Of a stretch of 44,274 nucleotides of DNA, positions 13,116 to 40,781 are shown piece by piece. This DNA is from a virus. The DNA is taken from IMG/VR virus record IMGVR_UViG_3300035701_000077, positions 1 to 44,274 of that record; one strand, given 5' to 3'. The translations under genes and the position numbers were made by a program. The stretch's first letter is position 1; each line of letters begins with the position of its first letter. The notes beneath the pieces are model-generated. The model was not told the origin of the DNA. It did not search any database and worked only from the letters and a program-made list of their open reading frames with translations.

Positions 13116-13691
13116 ATGGCCGCACCGAAACGAAAGCCTTTTCAGATTCACAAGGATCGAGTTGAGATTGCAACTCTCTACCTGCAGGGGAAGCTACAGT
13201 TCGAGATTGCACAGATTCTTTCCACAGATCAAGCGCGTGGGTACACCCTGACCCAACAGACGATTTCCCGCGATCTCAAGATGATTCAGCGAGATTGGCA
13301 GAGAAGTACCATTGTCAAGTTCGATGAGGCACGCGCGCAGGAGCTGGCAAAGATCGACAATCTTGAGAGAGAGTACTGGAGGGCCTGGGAGCGGTCGAAG
13401 ACGGAGAAGAAACACAGTGAGAAGGAAAAGACCGAAGGCATGCAATTGAAAGAGGTTACGCGTGTTGAAAAGTGGGAGCTGATTGGTGACCATCGTTTCC
13501 TCGAAGGTATTCAGTGGTGTATCAACCGGCGCTGCGAGCTGCTCGGGCTGGATGCTCCCAAGCGGATGCATATTTTTGAGGAAGATCTACTGTCCAAGAT
13601 CAACTGGGATTCTCTCACAAGAGAACAAATGCAGCGGATTGTGAATGGGGAAGAACCTACCAAAGTCATCCCCGGTTTTAAGTTCAACTGA
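13116..13691 (+). CDS. Terminase small subunit
   Basis: 191 residues from ATG 13116 (AGGA at 13106-13109); an earlier in-frame start overlaps the methyltransferase. An N-terminal HTH (about residues 15-50, ending in TLTQQTISRDLKMIQ) is followed by a long charged helix, then a C-terminal helical part (DLLSKINWDSLTREQMQRIVNGE). This layout and the position directly before the large terminase fit a DNA-recognition small terminase. The assignment is mainly from context. Confidence 0.8.
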   Translation: MAAPKRKPFQIHKDRVEIATLYLQGKLQFEIAQILSTDQARGYTLTQQTISRDLKMIQRDWQRSTIVKFDEARAQELAKIDNLEREYWRAWERSKTEKKHSEKEKTEGMQLKEVTRVEKWELIGDHRFLEGIQWCINRRCELLGLDAPKRMHIFEEDLLSKINWDSLTREQMQRIVNGEEPTKVIPGFKFN

Positions 13692-15171
13692 TCTGCTCAG
13701 AATCCGTGCCCGGGCATCACTGGAACTCAAAAACCGAGAGACGCATGGTTTCCGGTCCTTTGTCGACAAAGTCAACCCGCATTTCATCTGGTACCGGGTG
13801 TCTGTCGTTCTGGGGAACGTTCTCGAGCGCGTTGCAGCCGGCGAGCTGAAGCGAGTAATGATCTTTGAACCACCACGACATGGAAAAAGTGAAGAAGCCA
13901 GTCGACTGTTTCCGGCCTATTACATGTATCGATATCCCGAGAGGAAGATCGGGATCTGCTCCTATGGTGCCGATATCGCCTGGGGACTCAGCCGGGATGC
14001 TCGCGACTATTACCTGCGGTCCGAACGGAGCATTCGGGCGGACGTATCCGCCACCCGGGAGTGGCACAATCCCCGGGGAGGAGTCCTCTGGGCGGCCGGC
14101 GTCGGAGGACCTATCACTGGCCGGGGATTCGATCTCGGGATCATCGACGATCCGATCAAGAATGTGGAAGAGGCCTACTCGCTCACCATCAGGGAGAATG
14201 AGAAGCAATGGTGGCGGTCGACATTCTATACCCGGGCGGAGCCGAACGCAGCGATTGTCATCATACAGACCCGATGGCACGAAGACGACTTGTGCGGGTG
14301 GTTGCTGCAACAGGAACGCGATGAGCCGCAACATTGGCATATCGTTATCCTCGAAGCGTTGAAGGAATCGGTGAAGCCGAAGATTCCGGAGACGTGCACG
14401 ATCGAGCCGGATTGGCGGAAGCTTGGACAGGCGCTTTGTCCGGAGCGGTACGACGAGAAGCTTCTGGCGACGATCAAGGGACAAGTTGGTTCACAATTCT
14501 GGAGTGCACTCTACCAGCAGCGGCCGACCGCTTTGGAGGGCGATGTGTGGAAACGGCAATGGTTCAAGAAGTTCAAATCGATCAGGAACCTTGAGGTCGA
14601 AGACGTCGGCTATGACTGGGATCTTGCATATACCGAGAATGAGCGGAACAGCGCCTCGGCATATGTCAAGGCCGGCAAGGACAAATTCAACAACGTGTAT
14701 GTCTTCGATCTCGATTTCCGCTGGTTGCAGTTCCCGGATCTCATCCGTTGGATGGAGGAATGCGAAGGTCCGCATTTTGTGGAAGCCAAGGCAAGCGGCA
14801 AGTCTGCCGTGCAGTCATTGAAGAAACAGGAAATTGCGGCCGAGGAGGTTGAGATCCAGGGCGGAGCGGACAAGATTGCTCGGGCTCGATTGGCAAGCCC
14901 GGCAGCGGAAAGCGGTCACATCTTTGTTCACGAATCCATTTTTGAGAAACTGCTCGACGATCCCCGACAAGGATTGCTACACTTTCCGAGCGGCGTCTAT
15001 TCCGATGTCAACGATGCGTTCGTGCAAACGATCAATCGATTGTACCGGCCCGGTCCGCCTGCGGCAGCAGGTGGCATCAGGATGAAAGATGGCAAAGACC
15101 ACAAAGAGAAGTCCAAGAAACCTCATCAGTATGATCCCAAGTTCCGCCAACGACGTCAACGATCATTTTAG
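13645..15171 (+). CDS. Terminase large subunit
   Basis: 508 residues. Walker A EPPRHGKS lies near residue 74, Walker B LGIIDDP near 165, and the coupling motif QTRWHEDDL near 208. A C-terminal RNase-H-like nuclease domain starts around residue 325 (YDWDLAYTENERNSASAYV). It cuts and pumps DNA into proheads. The ATG at 13645 overlaps the small subunit by 47 bases and has no clear ribosome site, so coupling is likely. Confidence 0.95.
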   Translation: MGKNLPKSSPVLSSTDLLRIRARASLELKNRETHGFRSFVDKVNPHFIWYRVSVVLGNVLERVAAGELKRVMIFEPPRHGKSEEASRLFPAYYMYRYPERKIGICSYGADIAWGLSRDARDYYLRSERSIRADVSATREWHNPRGGVLWAAGVGGPITGRGFDLGIIDDPIKNVEEAYSLTIRENEKQWWRSTFYTRAEPNAAIVIIQTRWHEDDLCGWLLQQERDEPQHWHIVILEALKESVKPKIPETCTIEPDWRKLGQALCPERYDEKLLATIKGQVGSQFWSALYQQRPTALEGDVWKRQWFKKFKSIRNLEVEDVGYDWDLAYTENERNSASAYVKAGKDKFNNVYVFDLDFRWLQFPDLIRWMEECEGPHFVEAKASGKSAVQSLKKQEIAAEEVEIQGGADKIARARLASPAAESGHIFVHESIFEKLLDDPRQGLLHFPSGVYSDVNDAFVQTINRLYRPGPPAAAGGIRMKDGKDHKEKSKKPHQYDPKFRQRRQRSF

Positions 15172-18419: not shown

Positions 18420-21020
18420 ATGCGTTGGAAAGTTTATCATATCAACGGCAAGTATTGCGTCTATAAATGTGATGCGCAGGAGAACCGCATCGGTGATGCA
18501 CTCGGCTCTCACGATAAACCCGAGGAAGCCAATAAGGAAATCCGGGCCCTTTATGCCGGAGAATCATTAGATGAGCAAAGCTCGAATGTCCGCAATGCCT
18601 TTTACGATCAATTCCAAAAGCAGTCAATGCCCCCGTCGAATACGATTTATGTACGCGAGGTTTTCGACGACTATGTAATCGCGGATGGCGGTTCCGAGGG
18701 TATGTTCAAGATCGGTTATCGGACAACGGACTCGAAGATCGAGTTCGATCCGCGCGACAAATGGACCAAGGTCGAGGTTCAATACGTAAAAGCGGCTGCC
18801 GATCTGAAGCTGATGATAGCGTCGAATTTCCGAGCGCAGTCAAATCGAGAAAGCCAGCCCAAGGGGACCTCGTGGGACGTGACAATCATCAAAACTGGCA
18901 AAACGCAAACGGATCCGCCGATCTGGATCACGGCCGAAGCGCTCGAGGCATCGAAGTCGATATTCAACGGCGCCAAGGTCTATGCCGTCCTGGAAGGCGA
19001 TCGGAACGGGCATAAGTCGGACCCGAACAAGAAAGTCATCCGTGAAGTCGTCGGCGTGCTCGAGAATCCTTACGTCGATGGCGATGAATTGAAAGCGACG
19101 CTGCACATTCTTCCCTCAGAACAATGGCTGCGCGACAACCTACTTTTCCTCGAAAGCAAGAACAAGCTACACGTCTATCAGCTGAGCGTGGACTCGATCA
19201 TTGCGACGGAGAAGAAGAATGTACCGGAGCTCGGCCAGGAGATGCTGGTAATGAAGAAGATGGTCCGGGCCGATCTGGACATTGTCAGTGAAGCGGCAGC
19301 CGGGGGAAAGTTCAACAAGTTAGTAGCATCGAAACAACATTCACAATCGGGGGATTCCACCATGTTGAAACACAAACTTCTCACACTCTTTCTGCTCGTG
19401 TATCCGACATTCCTCGCGAGCAAGAACATCGACGTCGTGAAGATCGATGAGAACGAACTCTTCACGCACCTGCTCGCGGCCGACAAGCCACAGTCGCGGC
19501 TGCATCTGCCGGACGGGGCTCAGCTCGATGAGAAGGTGATCGATGAAAAGCTCGCAGAGTTCAGGGCTTCCATCGACAAAGACCAGAAGCCTGCGGATAG
19601 CGCCAACCAGGATCTGAACAAGGATAAGGACAAGAACAAGCCGGACGATAAAATCCTCCAGGCTGCTCTTGATCCCATCCAGAAGGAAATGAAAGAACTG
19701 CGGCTCCAGGCCTGCGCTGGCATATTGGCCACAAAGCTCGCGGAGAGCAAGCTTCCCCAACACCTGCAGACGAGCATTCAGAAGCGGTGGAAGGATAAGC
19801 TCTTCACCTCAACGGAACTGGATGAAGACATCAAGTCCATCCGGGATATGTTCGCACCCTTCACGCAGCCGGGAGTGAACAACCGTGGCATGGATATCCA
19901 GCCGGGACAGGACGAGCAGGACAAATTCCAGGCGGCTCTCGACGGATTCTTCCTCTGCTCATCGCAGGCTCTGAAACCGGTGAAGGCCGGAACGGAAGAG
20001 TACAAGCAGCTGCTCGGGGGAGTGGACCCATTCCGTTCGATCAAGGAGGCCTACATCCAGTTCACGGGCGATACCAGAGTCACGGGGCAGGCGCCGAAGA
20101 ATTCCCGCTTCACCGCGTCGCTCTCGACCACAGATTGGGCGAACATCCTGGCCAACACACTGAATCGCAGATTGGTCCGGGATTACGCTCAGCTTGGTCT
20201 CGATACCTGGAGAGCGTTCTGCGACATCATTCCGCTGAACGATTTCAAGGAACAGACACGAGTCCGGTTTGGCGGATATCCGAACCTGGCCATTGTGGGT
20301 GAGCGGGATCCCTATCCTGCGCTCGTTTCTCCGACCGACGAGAAAGCTATTTACTCGCCGGCGAAGCGTGGCGGGACGGAAGATATCACACGGGAGATGA
20401 TCCTCAACGATGACGTTGGCTCCATCCAGAAGATCCCGATCAGAATGGCCCGGGCTGCGGGTCAGACCCTGCACGAGTTCGTCTACGACTTCCTGCGGCC
20501 TGGAGTGAATCCGACGATCTACGACAACAAGGCGCTCTATCACAACGATCACTTGAATATCGGCTCAGCTGCACTTGCAGCCGACGGCGTTGCCTTTGCC
20601 GCTGCTCGTCTTCGGATGAAGAAGCAGATGATGAAGGATAACCTCAAGCGGCTGGGGATCCGGGCGGGATACTTGCTCTCGCCATCCGATTTGGAGGCGA
20701 TTGCCTATGGATTGCTGACGCCAGCATTCAACAAGAGCAACACAGTGCCGGAATTCCTGCAGCAGATCGGTGTCACGCCGATCGTTGTCGATTACTGGAC
20801 GGATGCCACCGACTGGGTGATCACGGCTCGGCGAGAGGATCTCGTGGGCATCGAGATCGGCTTCATCAACGGCCAGGAGACGCCTGAGATCTTCGTTTCG
20901 GATCTGCCGAACGTCGGTTCGTTCTTCACGAACGATGTGAATACGTTCAAGATCCGGCACGAGTACGGCGGCAATGTGACGGACTTCCGGGCATTCGACG
21001 GATCGATCGTCGCAGCCTAA
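18420..21020 (+). CDS. Prohead protease / scaffold / major capsid protein fusion
   Basis: 866 residues, GAGG upstream. The N-terminal ~95 residues are a small leader domain. Residues ~140-290 resemble a prohead protease, with H198 (in NGHKSD) and S256 (in VYQLSVDSI) as the likely catalytic pair. Residues ~315-500 are charged, helical and scaffold-like, including the very polar stretch DKDQKPADSANQDLNKDKDK. Residues ~510-866 form a major capsid domain (LVRDYAQLGLDTWRAF..., ending in KIRHEYGGNVTDFRAFDGS). Such fusions are known in other phages. In-frame ATG 19362 (residue 315), after a G-rich run, could give a scaffold-capsid product. Self-cleavage should release the coat protein. Confidence 0.9.
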   Translation: MRWKVYHINGKYCVYKCDAQENRIGDALGSHDKPEEANKEIRALYAGESLDEQSSNVRNAFYDQFQKQSMPPSNTIYVREVFDDYVIADGGSEGMFKIGYRTTDSKIEFDPRDKWTKVEVQYVKAAADLKLMIASNFRAQSNRESQPKGTSWDVTIIKTGKTQTDPPIWITAEALEASKSIFNGAKVYAVLEGDRNGHKSDPNKKVIREVVGVLENPYVDGDELKATLHILPSEQWLRDNLLFLESKNKLHVYQLSVDSIIATEKKNVPELGQEMLVMKKMVRADLDIVSEAAAGGKFNKLVASKQHSQSGDSTMLKHKLLTLFLLVYPTFLASKNIDVVKIDENELFTHLLAADKPQSRLHLPDGAQLDEKVIDEKLAEFRASIDKDQKPADSANQDLNKDKDKNKPDDKILQAALDPIQKEMKELRLQACAGILATKLAESKLPQHLQTSIQKRWKDKLFTSTELDEDIKSIRDMFAPFTQPGVNNRGMDIQPGQDEQDKFQAALDGFFLCSSQALKPVKAGTEEYKQLLGGVDPFRSIKEAYIQFTGDTRVTGQAPKNSRFTASLSTTDWANILANTLNRRLVRDYAQLGLDTWRAFCDIIPLNDFKEQTRVRFGGYPNLAIVGERDPYPALVSPTDEKAIYSPAKRGGTEDITREMILNDDVGSIQKIPIRMARAAGQTLHEFVYDFLRPGVNPTIYDNKALYHNDHLNIGSAALAADGVAFAAARLRMKKQMMKDNLKRLGIRAGYLLSPSDLEAIAYGLLTPAFNKSNTVPEFLQQIGVTPIVVDYWTDATDWVITARREDLVGIEIGFINGQETPEIFVSDLPNVGSFFTNDVNTFKIRHEYGGNVTDFRAFDGSIVAA

Positions 21021-21061: not shown

Positions 21062-21091
21062 AATCTTTCTTTCACATCTCGGAGTAATGAC

Positions 21092-21553
21092 ATGAAAGCG
21101 ATCAAACTTCTCATTGCGGCTGCAGTGATTCTGACCCTCCTGACCCCAGCTGCACAGGCACAGACGATTGCGTACAACCTTAACACGCCGGTCTACCCGG
21201 TTGCATTCTACCGCGACTCAGTGACGATCAATTCGGGCTTTGCCGCGGACTCAATCTTCGTGTCGTTTCACGCGCCGTTCAAGCTTCGACTTGCAAAAGT
21301 CGAAGTATACATGTGCACGATCGACACGGGATCTGCAGCCGTTGTCCGAAGATTCGTGTTGAAGAAATCAACGTCAGGCACGGCTATAGCGACGATCAAT
21401 TTCACATCGACGGCGGCAGATACATGGGCTTACAATATAGCGCCTTCGCTGTCAACACTGAATGCGGGTGAAACTGTTCGTGGAATCTGGACTTGCGGAA
21501 CGGGTGTAAGGTTCAAGCAGGTCATCGTGCTCTTATGGTACCTGCGTATTTGA
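21092..21553 (+). CDS. Signal-peptide-bearing protein in the head/tail module
   Basis: 153 residues after CGGAG. A classic signal peptide opens the protein: MKAIK, a hydrophobic core (LLIAAAVILTLLTPA), then AQA cleavage before residue 24. The mature part is a beta-rich domain of about 130 residues with two cysteines in the middle and C-terminal region. It is predicted to be exported to the periplasm, strange for a gene between the capsid and connector genes. A secreted virion decoration, receptor mask or lysogenic factor are all possible; none is proven. Confidence 0.75.
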   Translation: MKAIKLLIAAAVILTLLTPAAQAQTIAYNLNTPVYPVAFYRDSVTINSGFAADSIFVSFHAPFKLRLAKVEVYMCTIDTGSAAVVRRFVLKKSTSGTAIATINFTSTAADTWAYNIAPSLSTLNAGETVRGIWTCGTGVRFKQVIVLLWYLRI

Positions 21554-21597
21554 TCTGACATCCGCTCGCGTTGCTGAACGAGACCCGATAGGTCGAA

Positions 21598-21624
21598 ATC
21601 CCGTCCTCAGGGGAAGGGCGGGAT
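21598..21624 (+). other. Intergenic hairpin ATCCCG...CGGGAT
   Basis: Six-pair stem ATCCCG / CGGGAT with an inner CCT...AGG pairing, in the 97-base gap before the connector gene. No T run follows, so it is not an obvious terminator; it may be an mRNA processing or stability element. Confidence 0.4.
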
Positions 21625-21650
21625 CCAACGCTAATCGATAAGAGAACTCG

Positions 21651-22643
21651 ATGAGTTCAAAGTATCTTTCCGCCGGCACTGCCAGCTACGTCGCATCGTC
21701 ACGTACGATCGCCGGGGCAACGATGACGCCGGTGTTCGAGCAAACCGATGCCGACGAACAGCGACAAGTCTTTTTCCGGATCGGTGCGAACATTTTCTGG
21801 GGATGCGTTACAACGTTCGTTTCCGGATCGTCAGTAATACTTCTTGCAATGGGGAATCTGCCGGCCGGCGATGGAACGATTGCTGAGCTGCTTCTCCTGG
21901 ATTTCTCAGAAGCGCATTCCTACCAGGATTACATCGAGGAGCTCCAGTCCCTGATCAAGGATGATCCTCCGAAACTCACGACGACATCCGGCGGAGATCT
22001 GGACAAGATCCTCGCAAAGGCGATTCGGGACTATTCAGGCCACCGGCCGTTCGTGGTCCGGAAGAAAGTTCAAGGGAATGGGACCTCGGAATACCTGCTT
22101 TCCACAATCTTCGGCAGCCTGTGGAAGCATGGGTACTCGAGCATCAGAGAGATCGAATATCCGATCGGGAGCAAGCCGAAAGAGATCCTGGATACCTCGC
22201 TATACGAGATCTACGATGATGGGACTGCCCAGGATGGATCGAATCTCAAACTGCGATTCGTGGATTCCCAGCCTTTAGCAAGCGTCTACTTCATCGTCGA
22301 AATATCGCTCGAGATGGACCTGCCTCGAGCTGGCGTTCAGAACTTTCCGGACACAGATGAGAACTTTTCCAATATCACCGTCCTGGCTGCCGCTTACGCC
22401 TGTCAGCGCCTGGCTGCAGCCTACGCTCAGTCAAGCGATGCGACGATCTCGGCGGACGTGGTGAATTACCACGACAAGTCCTCGCGCTATCAGAGTCTCG
22501 CGCGTCAATACCTGAAGCAGTACAACCTCGCTGTCTTCGGGACGGAAGAACCGGAAGCCAGCGTGGGAGCTGCAATGGCATCGAAGCCGATGCGACCGAC
22601 TGATATGGAAGGCGGATCCTATATGTTTCATCGGAGGAAGTGA
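21651..22643 (+). CDS. Head-tail connector-like protein
   Basis: 330 residues; the ATG has only a weak AAGAG ribosome site. The C-terminal half resembles head-completion/adaptor proteins: DYSGHRPFVV near residue 126, then a helical segment (LAAAYACQRLAAAYAQSSDA...ARQYLKQYN). The first ~70 residues are different in composition, with a hydrophobic stretch, and may be an added domain; an internal ATG near 21850 could also be a start. Position between capsid and tail genes supports a connector role. Confidence 0.75.
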   Translation: MSSKYLSAGTASYVASSRTIAGATMTPVFEQTDADEQRQVFFRIGANIFWGCVTTFVSGSSVILLAMGNLPAGDGTIAELLLLDFSEAHSYQDYIEELQSLIKDDPPKLTTTSGGDLDKILAKAIRDYSGHRPFVVRKKVQGNGTSEYLLSTIFGSLWKHGYSSIREIEYPIGSKPKEILDTSLYEIYDDGTAQDGSNLKLRFVDSQPLASVYFIVEISLEMDLPRAGVQNFPDTDENFSNITVLAAAYACQRLAAAYAQSSDATISADVVNYHDKSSRYQSLARQYLKQYNLAVFGTEEPEASVGAAMASKPMRPTDMEGGSYMFHRRK

Positions 22644-22837
22644 TGATTACTAATTTGTGTCCACACTGCGGGGGACAGAAGCTTGTCGCGATACGCAAGA
22701 CTTATGGGGAAGCGCCAGAGCAACAAGTTTACTATCAGACAATGATGTTCCCATGCTATCCGCTTCCGAACGAGATCATCTTGCAGATTTATTGTGAGAA
22801 CTGCGAAACGCTCTTCAGGATACAGGAAAACAGATAG
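22643..22837 (+). CDS. Small zinc-binding protein
   Basis: 64 residues from ATG 22643, 5 bases after GGAGG; a GTG one codon earlier is an alternative. CPHC near the N-terminus and CENC near the C-terminus bracket a short domain, the layout of a zinc ribbon. TGATG overlap with the connector gene and a one-base overlap with the next gene suggest coupling. Confidence 0.75.
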   Translation: MITNLCPHCGGQKLVAIRKTYGEAPEQQVYYQTMMFPCYPLPNEIILQIYCENCETLFRIQENR

Positions 22838-23469
22838 TGGAAACTTCACCTCCGCGATCAACAGCACAAGGCTCGATGCTCTTTAACGATTACTGGAGCA
22901 ACGTCAAGAAGGAGATCGAGCAGGAACTGCTGGCGCTTGTGAATCATCTTACCGGATTGATCCAAAAGAACGCACCGGTGGCCACCGATGCACTCGCGCC
23001 AAGTTTCGAACCGATCTCCGAGTTCCAACCGATGAAGACTTTCATCGGCGTTGGCTCACCCCTATGGTTTGGCCAGGGCGGATACGGAGCTTACATGGAA
23101 CTGGGAACGAAGCCTCACTGGGCGCCGATCGCACCGATCGCACGATGGGTGGAACAGAAGATCCAGCCGCACGTCCTTGCAGTCGGAGTCGAGTTCTCGA
23201 CTGGCAAAGCATTGCCAGCGAGAGCGGGAACGAAGAAATTGACAGGCGATGCTCGGCAGCGGGCGATCCAGGCTGTCGCCCGGGCGATCCAGGTCAAAAT
23301 CGCAAAGAAGGGAACCGAGGCCAAGCTGTACGTCAAGCGATCGCTCGAGGAGCTGGGGCTGCAGTCCACGCTTGTTCTGGCGACGGATCAGGAGCCTTAC
23401 TACGAGATCGATATCGGCGCTTGGCTCGAGGGCAGGCTGCCGGCAATCCTTGACAGGGTGAATGCGTGA
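22837..23469 (+). CDS. HK97 gp10-like neck/tail-completion protein
   Basis: 210 residues from GTG 22837. The central segment YGAYMELGTKPHWAPIAPIARWVE is the characteristic part of the gp10-like minor tail family, which acts at the head-tail joint. The remaining parts are an amphipathic helical N-terminus (residues 15-50) and a C-terminal alpha/beta tail. It overlaps the next gene by 4 bases. Confidence 0.82.
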   Translation: METSPPRSTAQGSMLFNDYWSNVKKEIEQELLALVNHLTGLIQKNAPVATDALAPSFEPISEFQPMKTFIGVGSPLWFGQGGYGAYMELGTKPHWAPIAPIARWVEQKIQPHVLAVGVEFSTGKALPARAGTKKLTGDARQRAIQAVARAIQVKIAKKGTEAKLYVKRSLEELGLQSTLVLATDQEPYYEIDIGAWLEGRLPAILDRVNA

Positions 23470-23945
23470 ACTATGCGACGGTCCGTGACGAGATCAAGGC
23501 GCAACTCAATGCCGTCTCCGGAATCGGCAAAGTGTACAAGCATCGCCGGCATTCGGCAGACTGGGGAACCTTCCTCAGCCGATTCAAAGATCCAACCGGA
23601 CTGATCAACGTCTGCTGGTTCAGCCGGGTAGACGATACTGAGACGGCAACCGGAACAGGATCGACCGACGAGGCGGGAGAAATCACCTGGGTGCAGGAGG
23701 ACGAGTATTGGGAGATCGAGCTCTATCACGGTTTCAAAGACGATGAGGATGACGGGACCCCGAGCGAGTATGCTTTCAATACTCTCGTTGACGCGATCGA
23801 AACGAAATTCCGTTTTCTGCAGAACCTGAATGGGAAGGCACGGTACAGTTTTCCACTGAACCGGACGAGCTGCACCTTCGGAGCTCTCGGCGACGTTCTC
23901 TGTCACAGAGCGGTCTGGAGATTGAAATTGCAGCACCGAATTTGA
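23466..23945 (+). CDS. Probable tail terminator/completion protein
   Basis: 159 residues from GTG 23466 in a GTGA overlap. An alpha/beta protein with an N-terminal helix (YATVRDEIKAQLNAVSG), central strands (EDEYWEIELYHGF) and a helix (YAFNTLVDAIETKFRFLQ). It sits exactly where lambda gpU-like tail terminators are found, after the gp10-like gene and before the tail-tube genes. The family call is from position and general fold. Confidence 0.65.
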   Translation: MNYATVRDEIKAQLNAVSGIGKVYKHRRHSADWGTFLSRFKDPTGLINVCWFSRVDDTETATGTGSTDEAGEITWVQEDEYWEIELYHGFKDDEDDGTPSEYAFNTLVDAIETKFRFLQNLNGKARYSFPLNRTSCTFGALGDVLCHRAVWRLKLQHRI

Positions 23946-23971
23946 TCACAATCAACCGAAAGGATACACCG

Positions 23972-24628
23972 ATGAAACAGTTCAAAGTTGCACTCCGTTG
24001 GACAGGGATTGCGTGCCTGTTCCTGGCATGCTTGTTCCTCATGCCGCTTGCACTGCCCTTCGTTGCAATGGCGCTGGCGCGCGATCGTCTGCGTCAGGAT
24101 GTGAACGGCGGCGGTCTGCTCAAGATCAGAGAGATCTCGCCAACTCCAGCCGACCCGTGGCTTGATCTTGGCTTTCTGGGCGGGACTGATTTTGGCGATG
24201 AGCATAGCATCATCAAGTGGATCGACGAAGTGGGGAACGTCATCAATGCTCAAAGCGGCCAACGGGAGGCGGGAATCAAGTCGGTCCTGTTCCAGACGTC
24301 GATCGATGAGATCAACCTCCTGAAGAATGCCCGAGGCAAGTATTACGATCTATACTACTACAAGAAGAACCTCGAGACAGGGAAGATCCAGGAAATCAGC
24401 GCGTGCTGCTGCAAGTTGAAACCGGGCCCCGTGCTCTCGATGAAGGCCAACTCGCAGCGCACGCTCGCCCTGGAGATCTACTTCCTGGCGCCGAAGGCAG
24501 CATTTACACGAACGCCGACCGGCTTCAACGTCGTGGCCGATGAACCGTACGTGATTGCTGAGCAAACCACAACGCCGCTGGGCGCTCCAACGGATACCGC
24601 TTCCTCACTGGCCACCGCCGTTCTTTAG
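23972..24628 (+). CDS. Tail-tube-like protein, copy 1, with N-terminal hydrophobic leader
   Basis: 218 residues from ATG 23972 (GAAAGGA upstream). Residues 1-36 look like a signal peptide or anchor (hydrophobic core WTGIACLFLACLFLMPL, then PFVAMALA). From Met33 on it aligns with the start of the next gene without gaps for 25 residues, sharing RDR, REISPTP and later (I)DEINL-K-N. Met33 (ATG 24068) has no ribosome site, while the upstream ATG does, so the leader appears to be translated. Either this tube paralogue is membrane-targeted or the leader is a late fusion. A CCC run lies near residue 149. Confidence 0.8.
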   Translation: MKQFKVALRWTGIACLFLACLFLMPLALPFVAMALARDRLRQDVNGGGLLKIREISPTPADPWLDLGFLGGTDFGDEHSIIKWIDEVGNVINAQSGQREAGIKSVLFQTSIDEINLLKNARGKYYDLYYYKKNLETGKIQEISACCCKLKPGPVLSMKANSQRTLALEIYFLAPKAAFTRTPTGFNVVADEPYVIAEQTTTPLGAPTDTASSLATAVL

Positions 24629-24640
24629 GAGGGCTGCATC

Positions 24641-25813
24641 ATGGGAGTGCTACGAGACAGAACAAGATTCTGGTCGCACGGTCTTGGAGTGATGGAACTG
24701 AGAGAAATCAGTCCCACGCCCGGGACCGATCACAGCGACATCGGCTATCTCGAAGAATCCACGATCGAAGATATCTCCGAACTCGAGAAGCGATTCGACG
24801 AGCGCGGCAGCCTCACAGACGTGCTGGAAAAGACCCGTACGGCTGCCGTCCGAACGAAGCTGATGCAGGTCGGAATCGATGAGATTAATCTCATCAAGAA
24901 TTCGGCCGCCAAGCGTTATTCGCTCCGTTATCACGGAGTGAACAAGGACAGCGGCAAGTTCCAGTACAATGCCTTCGACAAGGTCGTTCTCAATCGATCC
25001 TTGGCCCGGGAGTACAAGACAGGGCCGCAGGGCATTCCGTTGGAAGCCTTCGTGATAGACCTTTCAGATGATCTCGGCATCGACGATCCCCTGGGTTATG
25101 TCTATGAGTCCGCCGGTCAGATCCGGACCGCCGGGCTGCAACTCTGGATGGATGCACGGCTGGGGTACGGTAACGCGCTAGCGAAGATCCTGGAGATCTC
25201 CGGTTTTGCCAGGCACGGCACGCTATCGGCCGACTATGCAACCATCTGGCAGACCGGAACAAATCCCGATCGATTCCTACGCTTCGATGGCGCCAACGAT
25301 GAGGTGAATTTTGGGAACGTCCTGAACGATGATGCTTCCGGAGACTTCATCATCGAGATCTGGCTCCAGATGAAGGCAGCCAACGGGACTCTAGAGGAAA
25401 TCCTCTCGAAGAAGTCCCTTGTCTCAGGCAACACTGCGGGCTTTGCCGTCTATCGCACGACGGGCAACCTGATGGCATTCTGCCTCGGCAGTGGGACGGC
25501 AAATGCATTAGCAACGACTTCTGCCACAGTTCTGCAAAACGTCAACAAACACTTTGCCGTGACGGTCGACCGCAACGGCAATGCCCAGACCTATCTCAAC
25601 GGGGCAGCAGATGGGAACCCGGTGAGTGTCGCAGCGATCGGTACGGGAACGAATGCCCTGTATCTCTATCTCGGTCGCGATGGGACAAATTTCGGTCAGT
25701 ACGATGTGACGGTCCTCCGGATGTACCGGTACGCTGCGGGCAACCTGCCGGCAAATGCGGCCACGATGATCGCGAATCACTACAACGCTGAGAAGGCATT
25801 CTTTGGACTCTAA
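24641..25813 (+). CDS. Tail-tube protein, copy 2, with C-terminal LamG-like domain
   Basis: 390 residues after AGGAGGG. Residues 1-150 are the tube domain shared with the previous gene (RDRTRFW..., REISPTP, GIDEINLIKN). Residues ~175-385 are a concanavalin/LamG-like sandwich: RFDGANDEVNFGN, then EIWLQMKAANGT, and HFAVTVDRNGNAQTYLNGA, the hallmarks of LamG-3. The lectin-like domain would be displayed along the tail surface and might bind host glycans. Probably the main tube subunit. Confidence 0.85.
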   Translation: MGVLRDRTRFWSHGLGVMELREISPTPGTDHSDIGYLEESTIEDISELEKRFDERGSLTDVLEKTRTAAVRTKLMQVGIDEINLIKNSAAKRYSLRYHGVNKDSGKFQYNAFDKVVLNRSLAREYKTGPQGIPLEAFVIDLSDDLGIDDPLGYVYESAGQIRTAGLQLWMDARLGYGNALAKILEISGFARHGTLSADYATIWQTGTNPDRFLRFDGANDEVNFGNVLNDDASGDFIIEIWLQMKAANGTLEEILSKKSLVSGNTAGFAVYRTTGNLMAFCLGSGTANALATTSATVLQNVNKHFAVTVDRNGNAQTYLNGAADGNPVSVAAIGTGTNALYLYLGRDGTNFGQYDVTVLRMYRYAAGNLPANAATMIANHYNAEKAFFGL

Positions 25814-26341
25814 ATGACGACTGATAAGACCGTCTATTCCATCGCTGGAACGCGGTGGTATCAAGAGCAGCTGACGTACGAAGAGATCGGCAGGGCGGGC
25901 GATATCCTTTCTCAGTTTTCCAAGATGTTCGAGGAAGAGAAGCTCAAGTTTTCTGACGTGGCGAAAAGAATCTACGAAGCCGGCCTGGTCCCGAATCTCT
26001 TTGCTATCATCCTGAAACCCCATTGCCCCACTCCCTGGACCTTCACCGGCCACTGGTTCTTCCGGATCCTCCATCGAATAAGTCGCAAGAACCTCGCTCG
26101 CACGATGAAACTCGAGGAGATGTTCGGCGTTCTTGCAGACTTTTTTTTTATCAACACCGAATGGATCGAGAGATTGATCAGTTCAAGCGAGCAATCGGAT
26201 ACGAGGAGGAAAGCGCTCACTATGATGCAAACGATGATGGGGATTCTCTTTCCATTGAAGACGTTGCCATCATCCTCTCCAACGGAGACGTCAGCCGAAT
26301 CGAAACCGCCAGGCGTTTCATCCTCCGATCAAAAGCAGTAG
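25814..26341 (+). CDS. Tail assembly chaperone, frame-0 product (lambda G-like)
   Basis: 175 residues, starting directly after the previous stop. Helical protein between tube and tape-measure genes, the position of lambda gpG. The frame crosses nine T's at 26141-26149 (codons 110-112, three Phe). Its last 50 residues are serine/proline-rich and low in structure, as expected of the out-of-frame tail of a programmed-frameshift pair. Function is inferred from synteny. Confidence 0.75.
   Translation: MTTDKTVYSIAGTRWYQEQLTYEEIGRAGDILSQFSKMFEEEKLKFSDVAKRIYEAGLVPNLFAIILKPHCPTPWTFTGHWFFRILHRISRKNLARTMKLEEMFGVLADFFFINTEWIERLISSSEQSDTRRKALTMMQTMMGILFPLKTLPSSSPTETSAESKPPGVSSSDQKQ
26141..26149 (+). promoter_or_regulatory. 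Slippery T9 sequence, probable -1 ribosomal frameshift site
   Basis: Nine consecutive T's contain the ideal heptamer T-TTT-TTT. The frame-0 chaperone reads TTT-TTT-TTT here. The -1 frame is open from 26023 to 26445. A nine-base homopolymer can also be a sequencing error or allow transcriptional slippage. Confidence 0.7.
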
Positions 26342-26445
26342 GCGTCAAGAAGTTGATTCTTTTGCGAGCACAGATGGCGAAAGCCCCGAAATGGCCATCA
26401 AGCAGTGAGATCCCCGACGAGATAAGACGAGAACTCCATGGGTAA
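26149..26445 (+). CDS. Tail assembly chaperone, frameshift extension (lambda T-like)
   Basis: This is the -1-frame extension entered after the T9 site; a product starting at 25814 would be about 210 residues. The 98-residue extension (DREIDQFKRAIG..., then EDVAIILSNGDVSRIETARRFILRSKAVGVKK) is a compact acidic-to-basic domain. An independent ATG at 26161 has no ribosome site, favouring frameshifting. The stop overlaps the tape-measure start by 8 bases. The G/GT pair is a conserved siphophage feature needed for tail-length-controlled assembly. Confidence 0.65.
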   Translation, partial: YQHRMDREIDQFKRAIGYEEESAHYDANDDGDSLSIEDVAIILSNGDVSRIETARRFILRSKAVGVKKLILLRAQMAKAPKWPSSSEIPDEIRRELHG

Positions 26446-28420
26446 CACAAAAGTCGCGACGTTCGAGATCGATTCCGAGAAAGCGGAGGTTGCCGTTCAG
26501 CGGATGCAGAAGCTCATGCAACTGATGAACAAGACTGCCGAAGAAGCCCGCAAGGAACTGAGTCAGATCTTTGTGGATGTCCATGGACAACTCGGAGCCC
26601 CGCTTGATAAAACGAAGCAGAAAGTCGAGGACAATACCAAATCGCTGAGAGACTTCCGGCAGGAACAGCGGATGCAGAATTTCGTCTTGCGTGAAGGCTC
26701 GCAGGCCATGATGTCGCTCCTCTTCGCCTATGCTTACCTGCAGCAGGGACAGGACAAAACAACGGGCACAACGAAGAAGATCACCGACGCGCTGCTCACT
26801 GGTTTCATGGCAGCAAACGCAACACAGTTCGCCTTCTTCACTCTCGGACAGGTCGGAGAAAAGATGGGAGGCAAGGTGGGTGCGGCCTTGAGCAAAGTCG
26901 GCAGCTATGGGGGAGAAATCGGAATCGTGGTTGGGACGATCATTGCCGCGAAACAGGTTTTTGACGAGCTGATGCGATCTGCAGATCGTTTTGCCACGCG
27001 AGATCTGAAGTTCTTCGGCGAGCGGACCCCGAAACTCTCGCTCGAGGCTCTGCTCGAGGAGCGGAGAAAGGTGATGACAGAGATCAAGTCGATCGTGGAT
27101 TCCAGTCCATTGAAATCGATGATGAGAGCCCTTGTGACTGGCGATTATGCCACGTTTACCATTGCGGTGCAGAACGAACAGAAGCTCTTCAGTCTGCGAG
27201 AAAAGGAAAAGGTCCTGAACGAGGCAGTTGCTGAACGATCGAAGGTACAACTGGGCACAATCGAGGCCATCAACATCCAGATCGCGGAGCTCGTGGCGAA
27301 GAGGGATCTTGAGGCGAAGAGCATGCAGGAGGCGGCAAAGTATACCGATCAAATTGTCAAGCTGGAACAGGAAAAGGCGCGACTGCTCAAAACCAGCAGA
27401 GAGATTCGGCTCGCGGAAGCGGCCATAGCTCTCTCCGTCCTGGAAGCCGGCACAAAGGCGGAGCCGGATCAATTTCGCCGACAGCAGCTGGAAGCCCAAC
27501 TCGAGCTCCAGAAGGAGTTGGCTCAGATCGAAGAGAACAGGAAGAAAGCAATCTTGGAAGGCGGCAACAGAGAGTGGATCAATGCCAAGGCCAGAGAGCA
27601 ATCCGAGAAAGCCCGGCTTGCGTACGCATGGAAGGCTGACGAGATCTACTATACTCGAGAGCATGACCTGGCACTCCTCAAGGCCGAGAATCTGGCAAAC
27701 AACGTAAGACAAGTCGAGGCAAGATATGACGCGGAGGAGGATTTCGTCAGGAGAACGGTCAAGGACGAAGAACTGCGGCGGGAGAAACTCTTTGCTCTCC
27801 GCCGGCAACGGGAAACCGAACTTGCGGATCTGGAAATCAGAACTCTGAGCGAGCTTGCACAGGGATTCCAGGCCATCGAACAAGGCTTAACCTCGATCGG
27901 CGTGAAAGCCGATAGCACGTTGTCTCGCATGATTCAAATGGCGCAGATCGCGCTCAGGATTGCACAACTCGTCAACGCGATGAATGTCCGGCCGGAAGGT
28001 GCGACGACGGCGGATTATCTGAGCATCTTCGGCAACATCCTGGGCTTCATCGGTTTATTCGACACCGGGGGATGGACGGGTCCTGGATCCCGGAATCAGA
28101 TCGCCGGCTACGTGCACAAGGACGAGATCGTCTTCGAGCAGCCGCTCGTGCAGCGTTATCGCAACGAGCTGCTCGGGCTCAGGAGATCGATGCAGATGGG
28201 GATCCCGACGACGGGAATGTTTCCGACCGCAGACAATGGAAATCTCAACACGGCCATCCTGGTCAACGAGCTGCGCTCGCTTAAGCAAGTTGTGAGAACT
28301 CTCGAGATCCAGGTTCCGGTCATCTTTCGCAACGTGCTCAATGCACAGAAGATTGTGCGCGAGCAGTTGCCGGCCGCCCAGCAGTACTACTCGAAGAAAT
28401 CCGTGGATCCGACGTCATGA
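26438..28420 (+). CDS. Tape measure protein
   Basis: 660 residues. Long helical/coiled-coil body (residues 1-90 and 200-450), hydrophobic segments near residues 110-180 (including GEIGIVVGTIIAAKQ) and around 540, and the typical C-terminus GGWTGPGSRNQIAGYVHKDE followed by EIVFEQPLVQRY. At the usual 0.15 nm per residue it would set a tail of about 100 nm, typical of siphoviruses. The start codon is inside the chaperone extension, so the two are coupled. Confidence 0.92.
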   Translation: MGNTKVATFEIDSEKAEVAVQRMQKLMQLMNKTAEEARKELSQIFVDVHGQLGAPLDKTKQKVEDNTKSLRDFRQEQRMQNFVLREGSQAMMSLLFAYAYLQQGQDKTTGTTKKITDALLTGFMAANATQFAFFTLGQVGEKMGGKVGAALSKVGSYGGEIGIVVGTIIAAKQVFDELMRSADRFATRDLKFFGERTPKLSLEALLEERRKVMTEIKSIVDSSPLKSMMRALVTGDYATFTIAVQNEQKLFSLREKEKVLNEAVAERSKVQLGTIEAINIQIAELVAKRDLEAKSMQEAAKYTDQIVKLEQEKARLLKTSREIRLAEAAIALSVLEAGTKAEPDQFRRQQLEAQLELQKELAQIEENRKKAILEGGNREWINAKAREQSEKARLAYAWKADEIYYTREHDLALLKAENLANNVRQVEARYDAEEDFVRRTVKDEELRREKLFALRRQRETELADLEIRTLSELAQGFQAIEQGLTSIGVKADSTLSRMIQMAQIALRIAQLVNAMNVRPEGATTADYLSIFGNILGFIGLFDTGGWTGPGSRNQIAGYVHKDEIVFEQPLVQRYRNELLGLRRSMQMGIPTTGMFPTADNGNLNTAILVNELRSLKQVVRTLEIQVPVIFRNVLNAQKIVREQLPAAQQYYSKKSVDPTS

Positions 28421-30216
28421 CCGTCACACTGGAGCTAGAGAGCCAGAACATCGACATCACTGATTATCTCGACGATGAGTCCGACATGGAGATTGGACAA
28501 GAACTGGAAGCGAAAATGTTTCAGCGCACCGTCGACGACGTCCAGTTGCATTGCTCGAATCTATGGGAGGAATTTTCCCAATGGCTCTCAACACCCGGCG
28601 CCAGGAATCGAGTGGTGATCCGGGAGGATGGACGAGTGCTCTTTCGCGGCGAGGTTGAGAGTCCCGTGAATTTCGACGCCAGGGAAGAATGGGTCTCACT
28701 GGATTGTTTCTCACTGACGAAACGCTTCTGGGACATCTGCAAACAGACGAGGATATCAAAAGCCACCCCGATCGGGAAAGAGGACGATCTGTGGACGACG
28801 GTCGAGGAAGTAATCAAGAGAGAGGTGACCTTCGATCGATTCGACAATCTCTTCGTCGGCTATCAGATCAACGCTCTCTACGCGACCCGGAGGATCCGGT
28901 TCTGGGGTTACACGGCCGACGAAAGTATCGGCAACAACGGCCGATACAAGGACCTAGATCCACGCTTGACGCTGGACGAACTGCTCAAAGCGATGACCGT
29001 CTACTACAACGCCGATATCTTCATCGATCCGGAGACACAGGTTCTCGTCATGCAGCCTCGAGACGAAGTGCTGAATGACCTGAACCATCAACTGGACGAT
29101 ATCATCGAGGAGGATGATGAGGAGACGATTCACCTCTACGATGAGAAGATCGACTACCTTGGATTGAGTCTGAACTTTGCGAAACCAACAGCTCCCGCCG
29201 TAAGGAAAACGGAAGGTGTCCAGGCAGGTAAGGGACTTCAGCCAGGCCGGTACAAATGGGCGGCGACTTTCATCTATCGGAGCGGCGGTCTTGAGGTTGA
29301 ATCAATGCTCGGAGATGAATCTGATCCTCTCGATCTTCTGGCATTACCCAGTGGTGGCGCGTACAATGTGTCCGTTGACGTTCCGTTCGGTCCCGGGGGC
29401 TGCGTTGCCAGGAAGCTTTACAGAACGAAGAACGGAGGTGTGGGGAATCTGTACCTGGTCGGGAGAATCGACAACAATTCGGATGTCAGTTTCAATGATA
29501 CGGTACCGATCGAGCAGCTGCAAGTGCCGGCGCCAAAGCGCTCACAAGGGGGAACGATCTGGCTGCGCTTTGATGAAGAGACTGGGCTGTGGGATGATCC
29601 CATCATAGGTGATGAAGATGGCCTGAACATGCCTTTCGGGGAGATCTTCGATGTGACGCCTCGTTTGCACTTTCTTGCCAAACCCTTCGGCTACGGAATC
29701 GAGATCGCCGCGATCTATCCCTACGCAGGAAAAACCCGCATCCGCACCAAGGGCGAGAATGGTTTCAGTCGCGGCTTGGGAGTGAAGATCAATGACACGA
29801 ATTGCGTCCCTCCGCTCGAAGGTTTCTACATCATATCAGAAGTCTTTGACGACAATCAGACTTTCTCGATCGACGGACCGCTCGTCACTGCTTCGGGAGT
29901 TGGAGGAACAGCCGTTCGGTGGTACGACCAGGATAAGGACGAACTTCTGGATGTGGGTACAGAGAGTTTGTTTGACGTCTTCGCCTTCTTCGGAAACGAG
30001 AAGGATCAGCTGGACAAGATCCAGGAGCAATGGCGGAAGCTGTTTGTGTCCAGAAAACGTGTCAGGATGACCGCCAAGGGCCTCAATTTCCGTGTAGGGG
30101 ATAGTGCATCGCTGAACCGGCGTATCAATGGTCTGACTGTGGGCAAATGCGTGATCAAACGAGCCAAGAACAATCTCACGAAGGAACGAACAACTTTAGA
30201 GCTTCTGACTCTTTAA
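28417..30216 (+). CDS. Distal tail / baseplate hub protein
   Basis: 599 residues, ATGA overlap with the tape measure. Beta-rich; the N-terminal 230 residues resemble distal tail or hub proteins (VLFRGEVESP...WVSLDCFSLTKRF). A central inserted domain of about 100 residues (LQPGRYKWAATFIYRSGG...KLYRTKNGG...DNNSDVSFNDT) is the fibronectin-like repeat often found in such hubs. The C-terminus is alpha/beta. It should cap the tail tube and anchor fibres. Confidence 0.75.
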   Translation: MTVTLELESQNIDITDYLDDESDMEIGQELEAKMFQRTVDDVQLHCSNLWEEFSQWLSTPGARNRVVIREDGRVLFRGEVESPVNFDAREEWVSLDCFSLTKRFWDICKQTRISKATPIGKEDDLWTTVEEVIKREVTFDRFDNLFVGYQINALYATRRIRFWGYTADESIGNNGRYKDLDPRLTLDELLKAMTVYYNADIFIDPETQVLVMQPRDEVLNDLNHQLDDIIEEDDEETIHLYDEKIDYLGLSLNFAKPTAPAVRKTEGVQAGKGLQPGRYKWAATFIYRSGGLEVESMLGDESDPLDLLALPSGGAYNVSVDVPFGPGGCVARKLYRTKNGGVGNLYLVGRIDNNSDVSFNDTVPIEQLQVPAPKRSQGGTIWLRFDEETGLWDDPIIGDEDGLNMPFGEIFDVTPRLHFLAKPFGYGIEIAAIYPYAGKTRIRTKGENGFSRGLGVKINDTNCVPPLEGFYIISEVFDDNQTFSIDGPLVTASGVGGTAVRWYDQDKDELLDVGTESLFDVFAFFGNEKDQLDKIQEQWRKLFVSRKRVRMTAKGLNFRVGDSASLNRRINGLTVGKCVIKRAKNNLTKERTTLELLTL

Positions 30217-30217
30217 A

Positions 30218-30691
30218 ATGGAATCCACGAAAGTCATATCCGGAGTCGGCTTGCCCCGGCTCATCGTGGTCAAAGGTACGACGGAAACCACGATTGACCT
30301 TCCGCGCTGCCAGGAGATGACGGAGATCTTCACGCCCGATCAGTTCATCCACAAGCTTCGTCGATCGAGGAAAGACACAAAGTTCTACGGCTGGGAATAT
30401 CGATGCATTCTGGACTATTCAACGTACACGACCGGAGACATGCTCGACGACCTTCGTCCCGCTTTGAACCTGGGAGAGGACGATCGCTTGATCTTGATTC
30501 CCCGGAAAGATGCGCCTGAGTTTCAGTATAACGTTCTGTTCGTCGATCCAATTAACCTCAGCCTTTACGGCAAGAGTCCCGGTTATCGCAAGCCGGTCTT
30601 TGTGTTTGACGCGAAAGAATTGGTCGCTTCATTTCCAATCCGAGACGGATACGGAACTCACTATGCGACAAACTACGGGTACTGCCTCTAA
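30218..30691 (+). CDS. Baseplate-associated protein, unknown function
   Basis: 157 residues, 1 base after the previous stop and with only a weak ribosome site. Alpha/beta, with a central acidic segment (DDLRPALNLGEDDRLILIPRKD). Placed in the tail-tip cluster; likely a structural accessory. No recognised domain. Confidence 0.7.
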   Translation: MESTKVISGVGLPRLIVVKGTTETTIDLPRCQEMTEIFTPDQFIHKLRRSRKDTKFYGWEYRCILDYSTYTTGDMLDDLRPALNLGEDDRLILIPRKDAPEFQYNVLFVDPINLSLYGKSPGYRKPVFVFDAKELVASFPIRDGYGTHYATNYGYCL

Positions 30692-30702
30692 GGAGCGATG
30701 CA

Positions 30703-31008
30703 ATGCCAATACAACTCAAAATTCCCAAACGATATTTGATCGCATCGGATTCTGGGATTATCAACCGTATCAAAGGCTATCTTCTGCGAGCGATATCTGA
30801 TCCAGAGCTTGAGATACCGAACGTCACTTTTGAGATCGGCGAAAGCCTAATCATCCATAGTACGGCAGGCATCGACAAAAGCGTAGCCGTGCGTTGCGAG
30901 CCGGATGGGAGATTGCGGGTTTTCCTTTCGCCGCCGAGTGTCGATAAGAATTTCATCGACGTCATCGGGCAGGGTACGATTGTACCTCCTGATCGGAAGG
31001 AGGAGTAA
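30703..31008 (+). CDS. Small tail-tip protein, unknown
   Basis: 101 residues after AGGAG with 7-base spacing. Beta-rich (VTFEIGESLIIHS...VRCEPDGRLRVFLSP). Its end overlaps a hairpin that hides the next gene's ribosome site, so its translation probably controls the next gene. Confidence 0.75.
   Translation: MPIQLKIPKRYLIASDSGIINRIKGYLLRAISDPELEIPNVTFEIGESLIIHSTAGIDKSVAVRCEPDGRLRVFLSPPSVDKNFIDVIGQGTIVPPDRKEE
30985..31003 (+). promoter_or_regulatory. Hairpin sequestering the ribosome site of the fibre gene at 31010
   Basis: CCTCCT (30985-30990) pairs perfectly with AGGAGG (30998-31003), the Shine-Dalgarno of the next gene, across a 7-base loop. The element lies inside the last codons of the preceding gene, so a ribosome finishing that gene would melt it. 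A simple translational-coupling switch is likely. Confidence 0.6.
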
Positions 31009-31009
31009 T

Positions 31010-31927
31010 ATGGCACGCGTAGGAACTCCTCTTCTTAATCTAGGCTGTTGGCTTGATGGCGAGAATCCCGGTGCTGGGTCTCAAACGGTCGACAATACCG
31101 GCCTGAATGGCAATTGGATCAAGCTCGACACCGCCACCGGAGTTGGGCACAATTCAGATGGCTCTCACAAGGCGGATTCGATTGACGGACCGTCTCTGAA
31201 AACATCAGCATTCGACGGTTCGTCACTGGAATTGGTCGGGAGTCCTCGCAAGGGGCAGGTGAAGCCACTGGGAATCCACAAAGGCCATATTCACAGTGAT
31301 GTTGCTGATGGTGATTCCCTACAGAAGAACGGAACCTCCGGTCAGCTCGAGATCAAGGCAGTAAAGGCGGGAAAGCTCCTGGGGACCGGCACGGGAAAAG
31401 CCGTTGATGATAGCACGATCAATTTGAATGCTTCGAACGAGTTGCAGGCCAAGCCTCTCGGGATCACCATGGGCCACCTCGCGGCGGTCCTGCAGCAATC
31501 GTGGTCCTATCTCATCTATTGTCCATGGCAGGAAGCGGCAAGCGTTGTCGGCGATACGATTGGTTGGCATCCAGGATGGGCGGAGACGAGCGCGACGGAC
31601 GTTATCAAGATCCGGGCAATGTTTCGGAAACGGCCGATCGATAAGTATCTGAAGGTGGTTGCTCGTGCACGGATTAGCACTGGATCAGCAACTTGGAAAA
31701 TCAAAGTCGACACCTATCAGCTCCTTGGCGGCGGTGGAAGCGCATCGGGACAGGCAACGGGCAACAACACAAACTATTCAGTGACAGTAGAGGATTTCAG
31801 CGTCTCGATCGATATCAGCGCACTGACGGATGACCGCGTGCACGCTGTCGATATCAAACTCAGTGTGGGCACGGGTGCCGGCACGGCAGAAATGATCGGC
31901 GTTGTGGCATCAGTTCATGGTGGATGA
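31010..31927 (+). CDS. Tail fibre / tail-tip structural protein
   Basis: 305 residues from ATG 31010 behind GGAAGGAGGAG; a longer frame starting at 30905 overlaps the previous gene and was rejected. Glycine/serine/threonine-rich, with short repeats (KPLGIHKGHIH near residue 85 and KPLGITMGHL near 148) and a beta-sandwich-like C-terminal half. The first 25 residues also look low-complexity. Fits an elongated trimeric fibre component. Confidence 0.75.
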   Translation: MARVGTPLLNLGCWLDGENPGAGSQTVDNTGLNGNWIKLDTATGVGHNSDGSHKADSIDGPSLKTSAFDGSSLELVGSPRKGQVKPLGIHKGHIHSDVADGDSLQKNGTSGQLEIKAVKAGKLLGTGTGKAVDDSTINLNASNELQAKPLGITMGHLAAVLQQSWSYLIYCPWQEAASVVGDTIGWHPGWAETSATDVIKIRAMFRKRPIDKYLKVVARARISTGSATWKIKVDTYQLLGGGGSASGQATGNNTNYSVTVEDFSVSIDISALTDDRVHAVDIKLSVGTGAGTAEMIGVVASVHGG

Positions 31928-32523
31928 TGGTCAGCATCCTCAAATACCTGCAGCTGCTTGAACCGGGCGGCGAGATCCGGATCGGCAGTGGAGCTCCGGG
32001 CATCAATTTCACAGGTCTTCGCCTCTTCAAGGCGAACGACGTCGACAGCTGGGGACTCGAAACCTACAACGAGGATGTGCTCCAATGGCGTATTGCCCCT
32101 GACGGAACGCTGCGTGACGCACAAGACAACGTCATCCTGGATGCGGACGGTCTTCATTTCCCACAGTCCGGACAGAGTCCAGTCCTTGGTGCTTTGCTGA
32201 GAGACGTCATACTCGAAGGTCTGACGCAGGTCAAGGGCGATATGCTCTTCGCCTTGGATTCCTTTGTCGGATCGGACGATTTCGAGCGGGGATTGGCCAG
32301 CGGAGGAAAAGGCTGGGGCATGCGACGGGAAAATGGTATTACGGTCCTTCATATCGATGCACTGGCGGTTCGCAAGTACATCGCCGTCACCGAGTTCTTG
32401 ATTCAACAAATCCGTGCTCACAATGGAACGCTTCTTGTGACCGATACTGGATCGGGCAAGGTGGATGATTTCCTTTTTCTCGACGGCACAGCTTCGACCG
32501 AGTCAAAGTTTCAAAATCTATAG
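31924..32523 (+). CDS. Tail-tip/fibre protein with coiled-coil-like end
   Basis: 199 residues; ATG codons at 31924 and 31927 are both possible. The segment LHIDALAVRKYIAVTEFLI followed by QQIRAHNGTLLVTDTG matches a recurring region of phage central tail-tip and fibre proteins. The N-terminal half is glycine- and asparagine-rich. Probably part of the receptor-binding apparatus. Confidence 0.72.
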   Translation: MMVSILKYLQLLEPGGEIRIGSGAPGINFTGLRLFKANDVDSWGLETYNEDVLQWRIAPDGTLRDAQDNVILDADGLHFPQSGQSPVLGALLRDVILEGLTQVKGDMLFALDSFVGSDDFERGLASGGKGWGMRRENGITVLHIDALAVRKYIAVTEFLIQQIRAHNGTLLVTDTGSGKVDDFLFLDGTASTESKFQNL

Positions 32524-32538
32524 CGAAAGGACAACACG

Positions 32539-33018
32539 ATGGAGAACATTCTGGTAGGCTTACTCATCCTGGCGCTCATTCTGCTAGGGAAAAAATATGG
32601 CTTCATCCCGGGCGGATTCGCGCTTCTCGTCCCGGATGTTGGCGAGGTTCAGGTCTTGACGATGGCGCTGAAGAAAGCGACTGTTGAGGTTCAGACTCTC
32701 AAGTTGTACGTCAACGACAAGACGCCCGCAGAAGGAGATACCGCCGCGAGCTATACTGAGATGTCCACGCACGGCTACGCTGCGAAGGCGCTCGCTCGTG
32801 CGGACTGGACGGTGAGTTCGGCCGCAGGCATCACAACCGCTTCACAACCACAACAGATCTGGACCTTTACGGCCGCTGGTGCGGTAACAGTTTATGGTTA
32901 CTTCATCATTGAGGCGACATCGGGCGTGATACTGTGGGCTGAGCGTTTCGCAACGCCGCAGGTGATCCAAAACGATGGCGATCAGATAAAGGTGACGCCG
33001 AAGTTCACGGGTGAGTAG
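32539..33018 (+). CDS. Fibre-associated protein with N-terminal transmembrane leader
   Basis: 159 residues after GAAAGGA with 8-base spacing. Residues 4-20 form a membrane segment (ILVGLLILALILLG). From about residue 28 it follows a family of small phage structural proteins that normally begin at the LVPDVGE-type motif (VPDVGEVQVL..., KLYVNDKTPAEGD, YGYFIIEATSG). The hydrophobic leader is therefore an N-terminal addition. It is similar in kind to the leaders at 23972 and 21092, although the sequence is different. Confidence 0.75.
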   Translation: MENILVGLLILALILLGKKYGFIPGGFALLVPDVGEVQVLTMALKKATVEVQTLKLYVNDKTPAEGDTAASYTEMSTHGYAAKALARADWTVSSAAGITTASQPQQIWTFTAAGAVTVYGYFIIEATSGVILWAERFATPQVIQNDGDQIKVTPKFTGE

Positions 33019-40524: not shown

Positions 40525-40781
40525 GTCTTCCCTCGCTTTTTCTTACCTGGAACGAACCGCAGGCCTTTCTTCTTTCCCTTTCCGATTTCTATCAGCTCTT
40601 TGATCGTCCTCTTATAGTTTGCATTGATCTCTTCCGATGTCTGGCCGTCGATAGTGTACGTGCCGTCCGGAAGGATCTTGATATCCGGATTGAACTCGCG
40701 GAGCAGTTCAATCTCTGCTTTGGAAAACCCTTTGCCTTTGACGGTGGGGAGGAACAGAAATTTCTTGTTGTTCGAATTCAT
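40521..40781 (-). CDS. Small basic protein upstream of int, unknown
   Basis: 86 residues, minus strand. Its C-terminal third is lysine-rich (GKGKKKGLRFVPGKKKRGK). The middle (SKAEIELLREFNPDIKILPDGTYTIDGQTSEEI) looks like a small alpha/beta domain. Overlap with the int start by 4 bases and with the upstream gene by 1 base suggests one lysogenic transcript. It might bind DNA; no family known. Confidence 0.7.
   Translation of the reverse strand: MNSNNKKFLFLPTVKGKGFSKAEIELLREFNPDIKILPDGTYTIDGQTSEEINANYKRTIKELIEIGKGKKKGLRFVPGKKKRGKT

Follow-up and report, generated by a model that had tools for sequence, protein, structure and literature searches.

On balance, we favour an account in which the hydrophobic leaders on three late genes of an uncultured tailed phage have three separate histories and are not one phenomenon, a preference that covers the explanations given below for all three genes taken together. 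For the gene at 21092 (gene A), the best reading is a secreted phage protein of an ordinary kind, and not a membrane copy of a virion protein. The gene at 23972 (gene B), which probably encodes the tail-tube protein, carries a leader that has been kept by selection in part of one lineage. A common origin of the three leaders was rejected, as that of A is found throughout its family, that of B is lineage-specific, that of the gene at 32539 (gene C) is private to this phage, and sequence similarity among them is absent.

The late operon and its three leaders

The window, meaning the whole stretch of DNA analysed, comprises the 44,274 bases of record IMGVR_UViG_3300035701_000077, in which the late operon is ordered as in siphophages. 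The late genes run from a protease/major-capsid fusion (18420-21020, PF25209 match) through A, 21651, an HK97-gp10-like gene at 22837 (a weak match, under the curated cut-off), 23466, B, its paralogue B', 25814, a tape-measure-like gene at 26438 and the tail-tip and fibre genes to C at 32539. An integrase-like gene (39502-40524) was identified by eye. The closest relative of the window was locus L002 (capsid 94% and B core 96% identical), and L001 was more distant. A scan of genome contigs returned a sole match, a remote capsid relative in an Omnitrophota bin, and no match to A or B was found in the known phages searched.

Hydrophobic openings had been predicted for the three genes and were present in the open reading frames 21092-21553, 23972-24628 and 32539-33018. 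When leader hydrophobicity was ranked on a membrane scale against same-length six-frame stop-free segments of the window, only 0.35% of segments matched the leader of B and 0.12% that of C. Topology was judged by hydropathy, charges and motifs, and the leaders differ in type: A has a short h-region and an AxA site followed by Gln, B is hydrophobic over 23 residues, and C is hydrophobic over about 15 residues, followed by KK. Each leader has its own ribosome site, as predicted, GGAG for A and GAAAGGA with a 7-nt spacer for both B and C. The likeness of the latter two sites had also been pointed out and is real, but it does not link the two leaders. The GAAAGGA motif is common in these phages: a site of this type also precedes the leaderless B of L002, the leaderless C of locus L005 and other genes of the window, and the likeness is therefore no evidence of a shared leader. 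Searches with the leader peptides alone as queries returned nothing usable.

The capsid fusion contains an internal hydrophobic segment followed by IDENELFTHLL, which is kept in remote relatives and is scaffold-like. Its hydrophobic stretch LLTLFLLVYPTFLASK was rejected as a further leader, as it is part of a conserved internal region resembling a scaffold, and L035 lacks a Met at this point. A fourth leader on the gene at 17626 was rejected because GGAGG precedes an internal ATG at 17692.

A predicted secreted protein behind the capsid gene

Gene A (+ strand) is preceded by the Shine-Dalgarno GGAG (21081..21084) and opens with a predicted signal peptide, MKAIKLLIAAAVILTLLTPAAQA (21092..21160), which is followed by a mature part of 130 aa (21161..21553). 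The signal peptide has a Lys/Arg n-region, a short h-region, small residues at -3/-1 and Gln at +1, and its hydropathy is favourable over only about 15 residues. An HMM search of the fetched loci placed homologues of A directly behind the capsid gene in L001, L002, L033 (truncated), L041-L043, L044 and L045. Every homologue found opens with a signal peptide that ends in a small residue followed by Gln, and this +1 Gln is invariant in the six aligned homologues; identity to the window copy drops to 20-29%, yet the signal and the Gln are kept. Since the predicted signal peptide is conserved across the whole family, targeting of A for export is well supported. The dN/dS of the signal peptide was about 0.5 and that of the mature part 0.10 versus L002; signal peptides generally evolve fast. 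Further genes close to the capsid gene in L035, L041, L043, L044, L045 and L061 also carry signal peptides, most of them with Gln at +1.

The model of mature A was all-beta (pLDDT 78, pTM 0.73). The best matches to this model in the viral library were phage fibre-like and collagen-type proteins, and those in the PDB were TNF/C1q-like proteins and viral jelly rolls; A is therefore most likely a secreted jelly-roll protein. We propose that A would leave the cytoplasm through the host Sec system, that signal peptidase I would cleave it ahead of Gln24, as in Bacteroidetes-type hosts, and that the mature jelly roll would be released into the periplasm or onto the cell surface. The Q-rule applies to nearly all Bacteroidetes and to some others, e.g., Ignavibacterium (PMC5837995). 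Precedent exists for a phage-encoded Q-rule secreted protein such as A: Porphyromonas gingivalis phages have been reported to encode Q-rule signal-peptide genes, and A resembles these in being a phage Sec signal-peptide gene with predicted cleavage exposing Gln (PMC10367356). The same study notes major capsid proteins with predicted signal peptides, and its available text makes no mention of a tail-tube leader (PMC10367356). Unlike the cases described there, A comes from uncultured siphophage-like phages, where it directly follows a protease-capsid fusion, and it is modelled as a jelly roll. The A family would represent a conserved secreted gene adjoining the capsid gene in uncultured phages.

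Other genes with signal peptides were observed in these loci. The head-tail block of L035 contains an 859-codon gene (5699-8278) that combines a signal peptide with a GDSL lipase domain (PF13472), and in L061 two more signal-peptide genes, of 766 and 120 codons, lie directly behind the capsid gene (11311-13991). In the window, a gene on the - strand near the integrase-like gene (40781-41194) has a signal peptide ending in LFG followed by QS, with Gln at +1, and gave no Pfam match.

The leader of the probable tail-tube protein

The core of B, from Met33 on (24068..24628, +), is a probable tail-tube protein, an assignment based on gene order, homologues and a weak model. The order terminator - tube - chaperone - tape measure is seen around B, the neighbours being named by order and weak profile matches, and B thus lies, like siphophage major tail (tube) proteins, between tail terminator-like and chaperone/tape-measure genes. 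The core gave no Pfam or PHROG tail-tube match and its model was weak (pLDDT 49), with several phage tail tubes among the PDB matches, none below E 0.001. In end-to-end alignment the core was 89% identical to L001, 96% to L002, 33-34% to the B' paralogues and 25% to L036. B' (24641..25813, +) is a leaderless paralogue fused to a Laminin_G_3 domain, and a second copy with an extra surface domain is again a feature shared with siphophage tail tubes; the domain is lectin-like. The L042 record holds a pair of further leaderless B-type copies. What sets B apart from siphophage tail tubes is a 32-residue leader of membrane length, which was found in the window and L001 and was absent from L002 and every other B homologue found.

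This leader (23972..24067, +) follows the GAAAGGA at 23958..23964 (+), and no Shine-Dalgarno was seen ahead of Met33. As this sole ribosome site precedes the leader, every copy of B should carry it. Met33 had been proposed as the start of the soluble protein, and it does correspond exactly to the start of the paralogue at 24641 and of the leaderless B of L002. Between the window and L001 the leader has 16.5 synonymous and 11.5 non-synonymous changes (dN/dS 0.09, Fisher p ~1e-5), with synonymous change near saturation. The 28 differences are distributed 7/2/19 over the codon positions, a pattern that is reversed in the other two frames. The low dN/dS shows that the leader is translated and has been kept for a long time as a useful element in the lineage of the window and L001. 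That the leader is a start-site artefact, with translation beginning at Met33 and the upstream frame untranslated, is consistent with L002, where B begins at the corresponding Met behind a dedicated ribosome site, but the selection on the leader and the good GAAAGGA ahead of it, with none before Met33, make this reading scarcely credible.

A stretch of 13 residues in the leader, FKVALRWTGIACL, is identical in the window and L001. Such sequence-specific conservation exceeds that of the signal peptide of A (dN/dS 0.09 vs ~0.5, a difference that is itself not significant) and would suit a hydrophobic N-terminal arm that is never inserted into a membrane and in the virion lies packed against the tape measure or within the tail tube. 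We consider an arm of this kind rather doubtful, because both phages keep 23 membrane-favourable residues and because it is absent from the other members of the B family seen, whose tails presumably work without it. We prefer to regard the leader as a conserved membrane-length segment. Positive charges flank both its ends and Pro25 and Pro29 are conserved, giving an ambiguous topology, and its sequence would suit a signal that is cleaved, a stable anchor or a re-entrant segment. A lipoprotein signal (TGIAC) was rejected on inspection, the charged residues being too close and the context of the second Cys not being kept in L001. A match of the leader to PHROG_37624 (E 8e-4 for the window, 0.12 for L001) likely reflects hydrophobic bias.

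In phages carrying the leader, tail subunits would be made at the inner membrane, and B would then either be freed by cleavage near Met33 (between VAMALA and R) or be used uncut, leader included. Unless removed, a membrane leader carried by all tail subunits would hinder tail assembly. Since the leaderless form of L002 is presumably functional, a precursor that is cleaved, or a leader that is tolerated, is favoured. The B core is more constrained than B' (dN/dS 0.068 and 0.127, respectively), which speaks for a continued role of B in the virion. The original prediction had described all three genes as membrane-targeted copies of virion proteins. For B a membrane-targeted virion protein is plausible, given a leader under purifying selection and a highly constrained core; for C the description is conceivable, and A it does not fit. 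Tail-tube subunits are normally regarded as soluble and cytoplasmic. If one of them bears a selected membrane leader in only part of a lineage, this would provide a natural with/without pair (window or L001 versus L002) for testing membrane-tied tail assembly.

In L002 the space between the upstream gene and the start of B, the exact position of the leader in the window and L001, is occupied by an HNH homing endonuclease-type gene of 159 codons (L002:4666-5142; phrog_374, E 3.6e-65), and B starts behind TGAAAGGATATAATC. Along the upstream gene, codon divergence between the window and L002 increases from 0.10 to a final 0.74; over the first ~127 codons of B it lies at 0.2-0.45, and over the last 60 it is zero. 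Parts of gene 22837 show raised divergence as well, which leaves the tract without sharp edges. From these alignments the divergence peak looks like a homing conversion tract, the HNH gene and the peak together forming the pattern expected if homing copied the nuclease gene and its flanks from a leaderless donor. The DNA copied in would have brought the L002 lineage both the HNH gene and a start without a leader, and the B leader would have been lost in the process. As L001 is more distant from the window yet has the leader, a loss in L002 is the more economical sequence of events, but with only two leader-bearing B sequences known, gain, loss and exchange cannot be ordered firmly.

Nuclease genes at boundaries of exchange are known, and as with free-standing homing endonuclease genes the putative nuclease gene of L002 adjoins a virion gene and lies at the centre of a divergence peak (PMC10448857). 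In contrast to these, it is inserted just where the protein next to it can have an N-terminal leader, which is optional. At the L002 junction, a homing gene would have altered the N-terminus of an adjacent virion protein. The placement of the HNH gene exactly where the leader sits in the window and L001 would also be expected if the two were alternative occupants of one site, the leader interrupting the nuclease target and protecting against homing. This is very unlikely, as selection acts on the protein sequence of the leader, which protection of the DNA does not require, and the target sequence is hypothetical. Returning to the membrane precursor, we suggest, as a tentative and rather improbable extension, that a siphophage tail tube is made as a membrane-inserted precursor with a selected, removable leader, so that tail building takes place at the inner membrane, and that the leader is a cassette open to exchange, with a homing endonuclease gene competing for its site.

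The leader of the gene at 32539

The core of C, from Phe27 on (32617..33018, +), probably belongs to a head/fibre-type family, with matches to PF23140 Gp80 (E 1.5e-4, under the curated cut-off), PHROG_10467 (E 4.3e-14) and PHROG 8123 and 240. It is 86% identical to L005 (114/133 residues), with 53 synonymous and 18 non-synonymous codon changes. Homologues at 28 loci, L005 included, start leaderless at MALLV, and most phage matches to C begin at residue 27. The usual start of the family had been placed internally in C, and it is indeed internal, but it falls at Phe27 and not at a Met: the family N-terminus (M/F)ALLVxxxGE lies at residue 27, where Phe replaces Met in the window, and Met42 sits inside the family core. 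As Phe27 is no start codon and Met42 is within the core, no start codon of the window yields the usual C protein. From residue 27 C resembles the head and fibre proteins of these families; it differs from them in a leader of 26 codons ahead of the family start (32539..32616, +; GAAAGGA at 32525..32531, +), which is unique to the window contig. Residue 2 of the leader is a glutamate and its hydrophobic stretch is followed by two lysines, which would leave the C core cytoplasmic if the leader inserts.

It had been proposed that the leaders of B and C make a second, membrane-anchored version of a virion protein that aids assembly, blocks superinfection or acts at the cell surface. The hydrophobic strength of both leaders and the selection on that of B are in line with this, and the leaderless B' could supply the tube. 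However, a start for a soluble copy was found neither in B, with no Shine-Dalgarno before Met33, nor in C, with no start codon at Phe27; the B core, more constrained than B', is unlike a part released from virion duty; and the C leader is conserved in no relative. We therefore regard a second, anchored version as unlikely, and found no evidence of a second, soluble copy for any of the three genes or of superinfection blocking for any of the three leaders. Absence of the leaders in close relatives, which had been named as an observation that would count against the proposal, was half borne out for B, as L002 lacks the leader, and fully for C.

We favour instead a recent acquisition of the C leader, probably by a 20-nt insertion that displaced the old start and joined C to an upstream hydrophobic frame. 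Such an insertion is suggested by an out-of-frame ATGGCT (32597..32602, +), the candidate ancestral start, directly followed by the candidate insertion (32603..32622, +). Skipping these 20 nt joins the ATGGCT to the frame of C, to read MALLVPDVGEVQ, and the protein would then open with MALLVPDVGEVQVLT. An ATGGC-like motif arises in 4.5% of shuffled C leaders.
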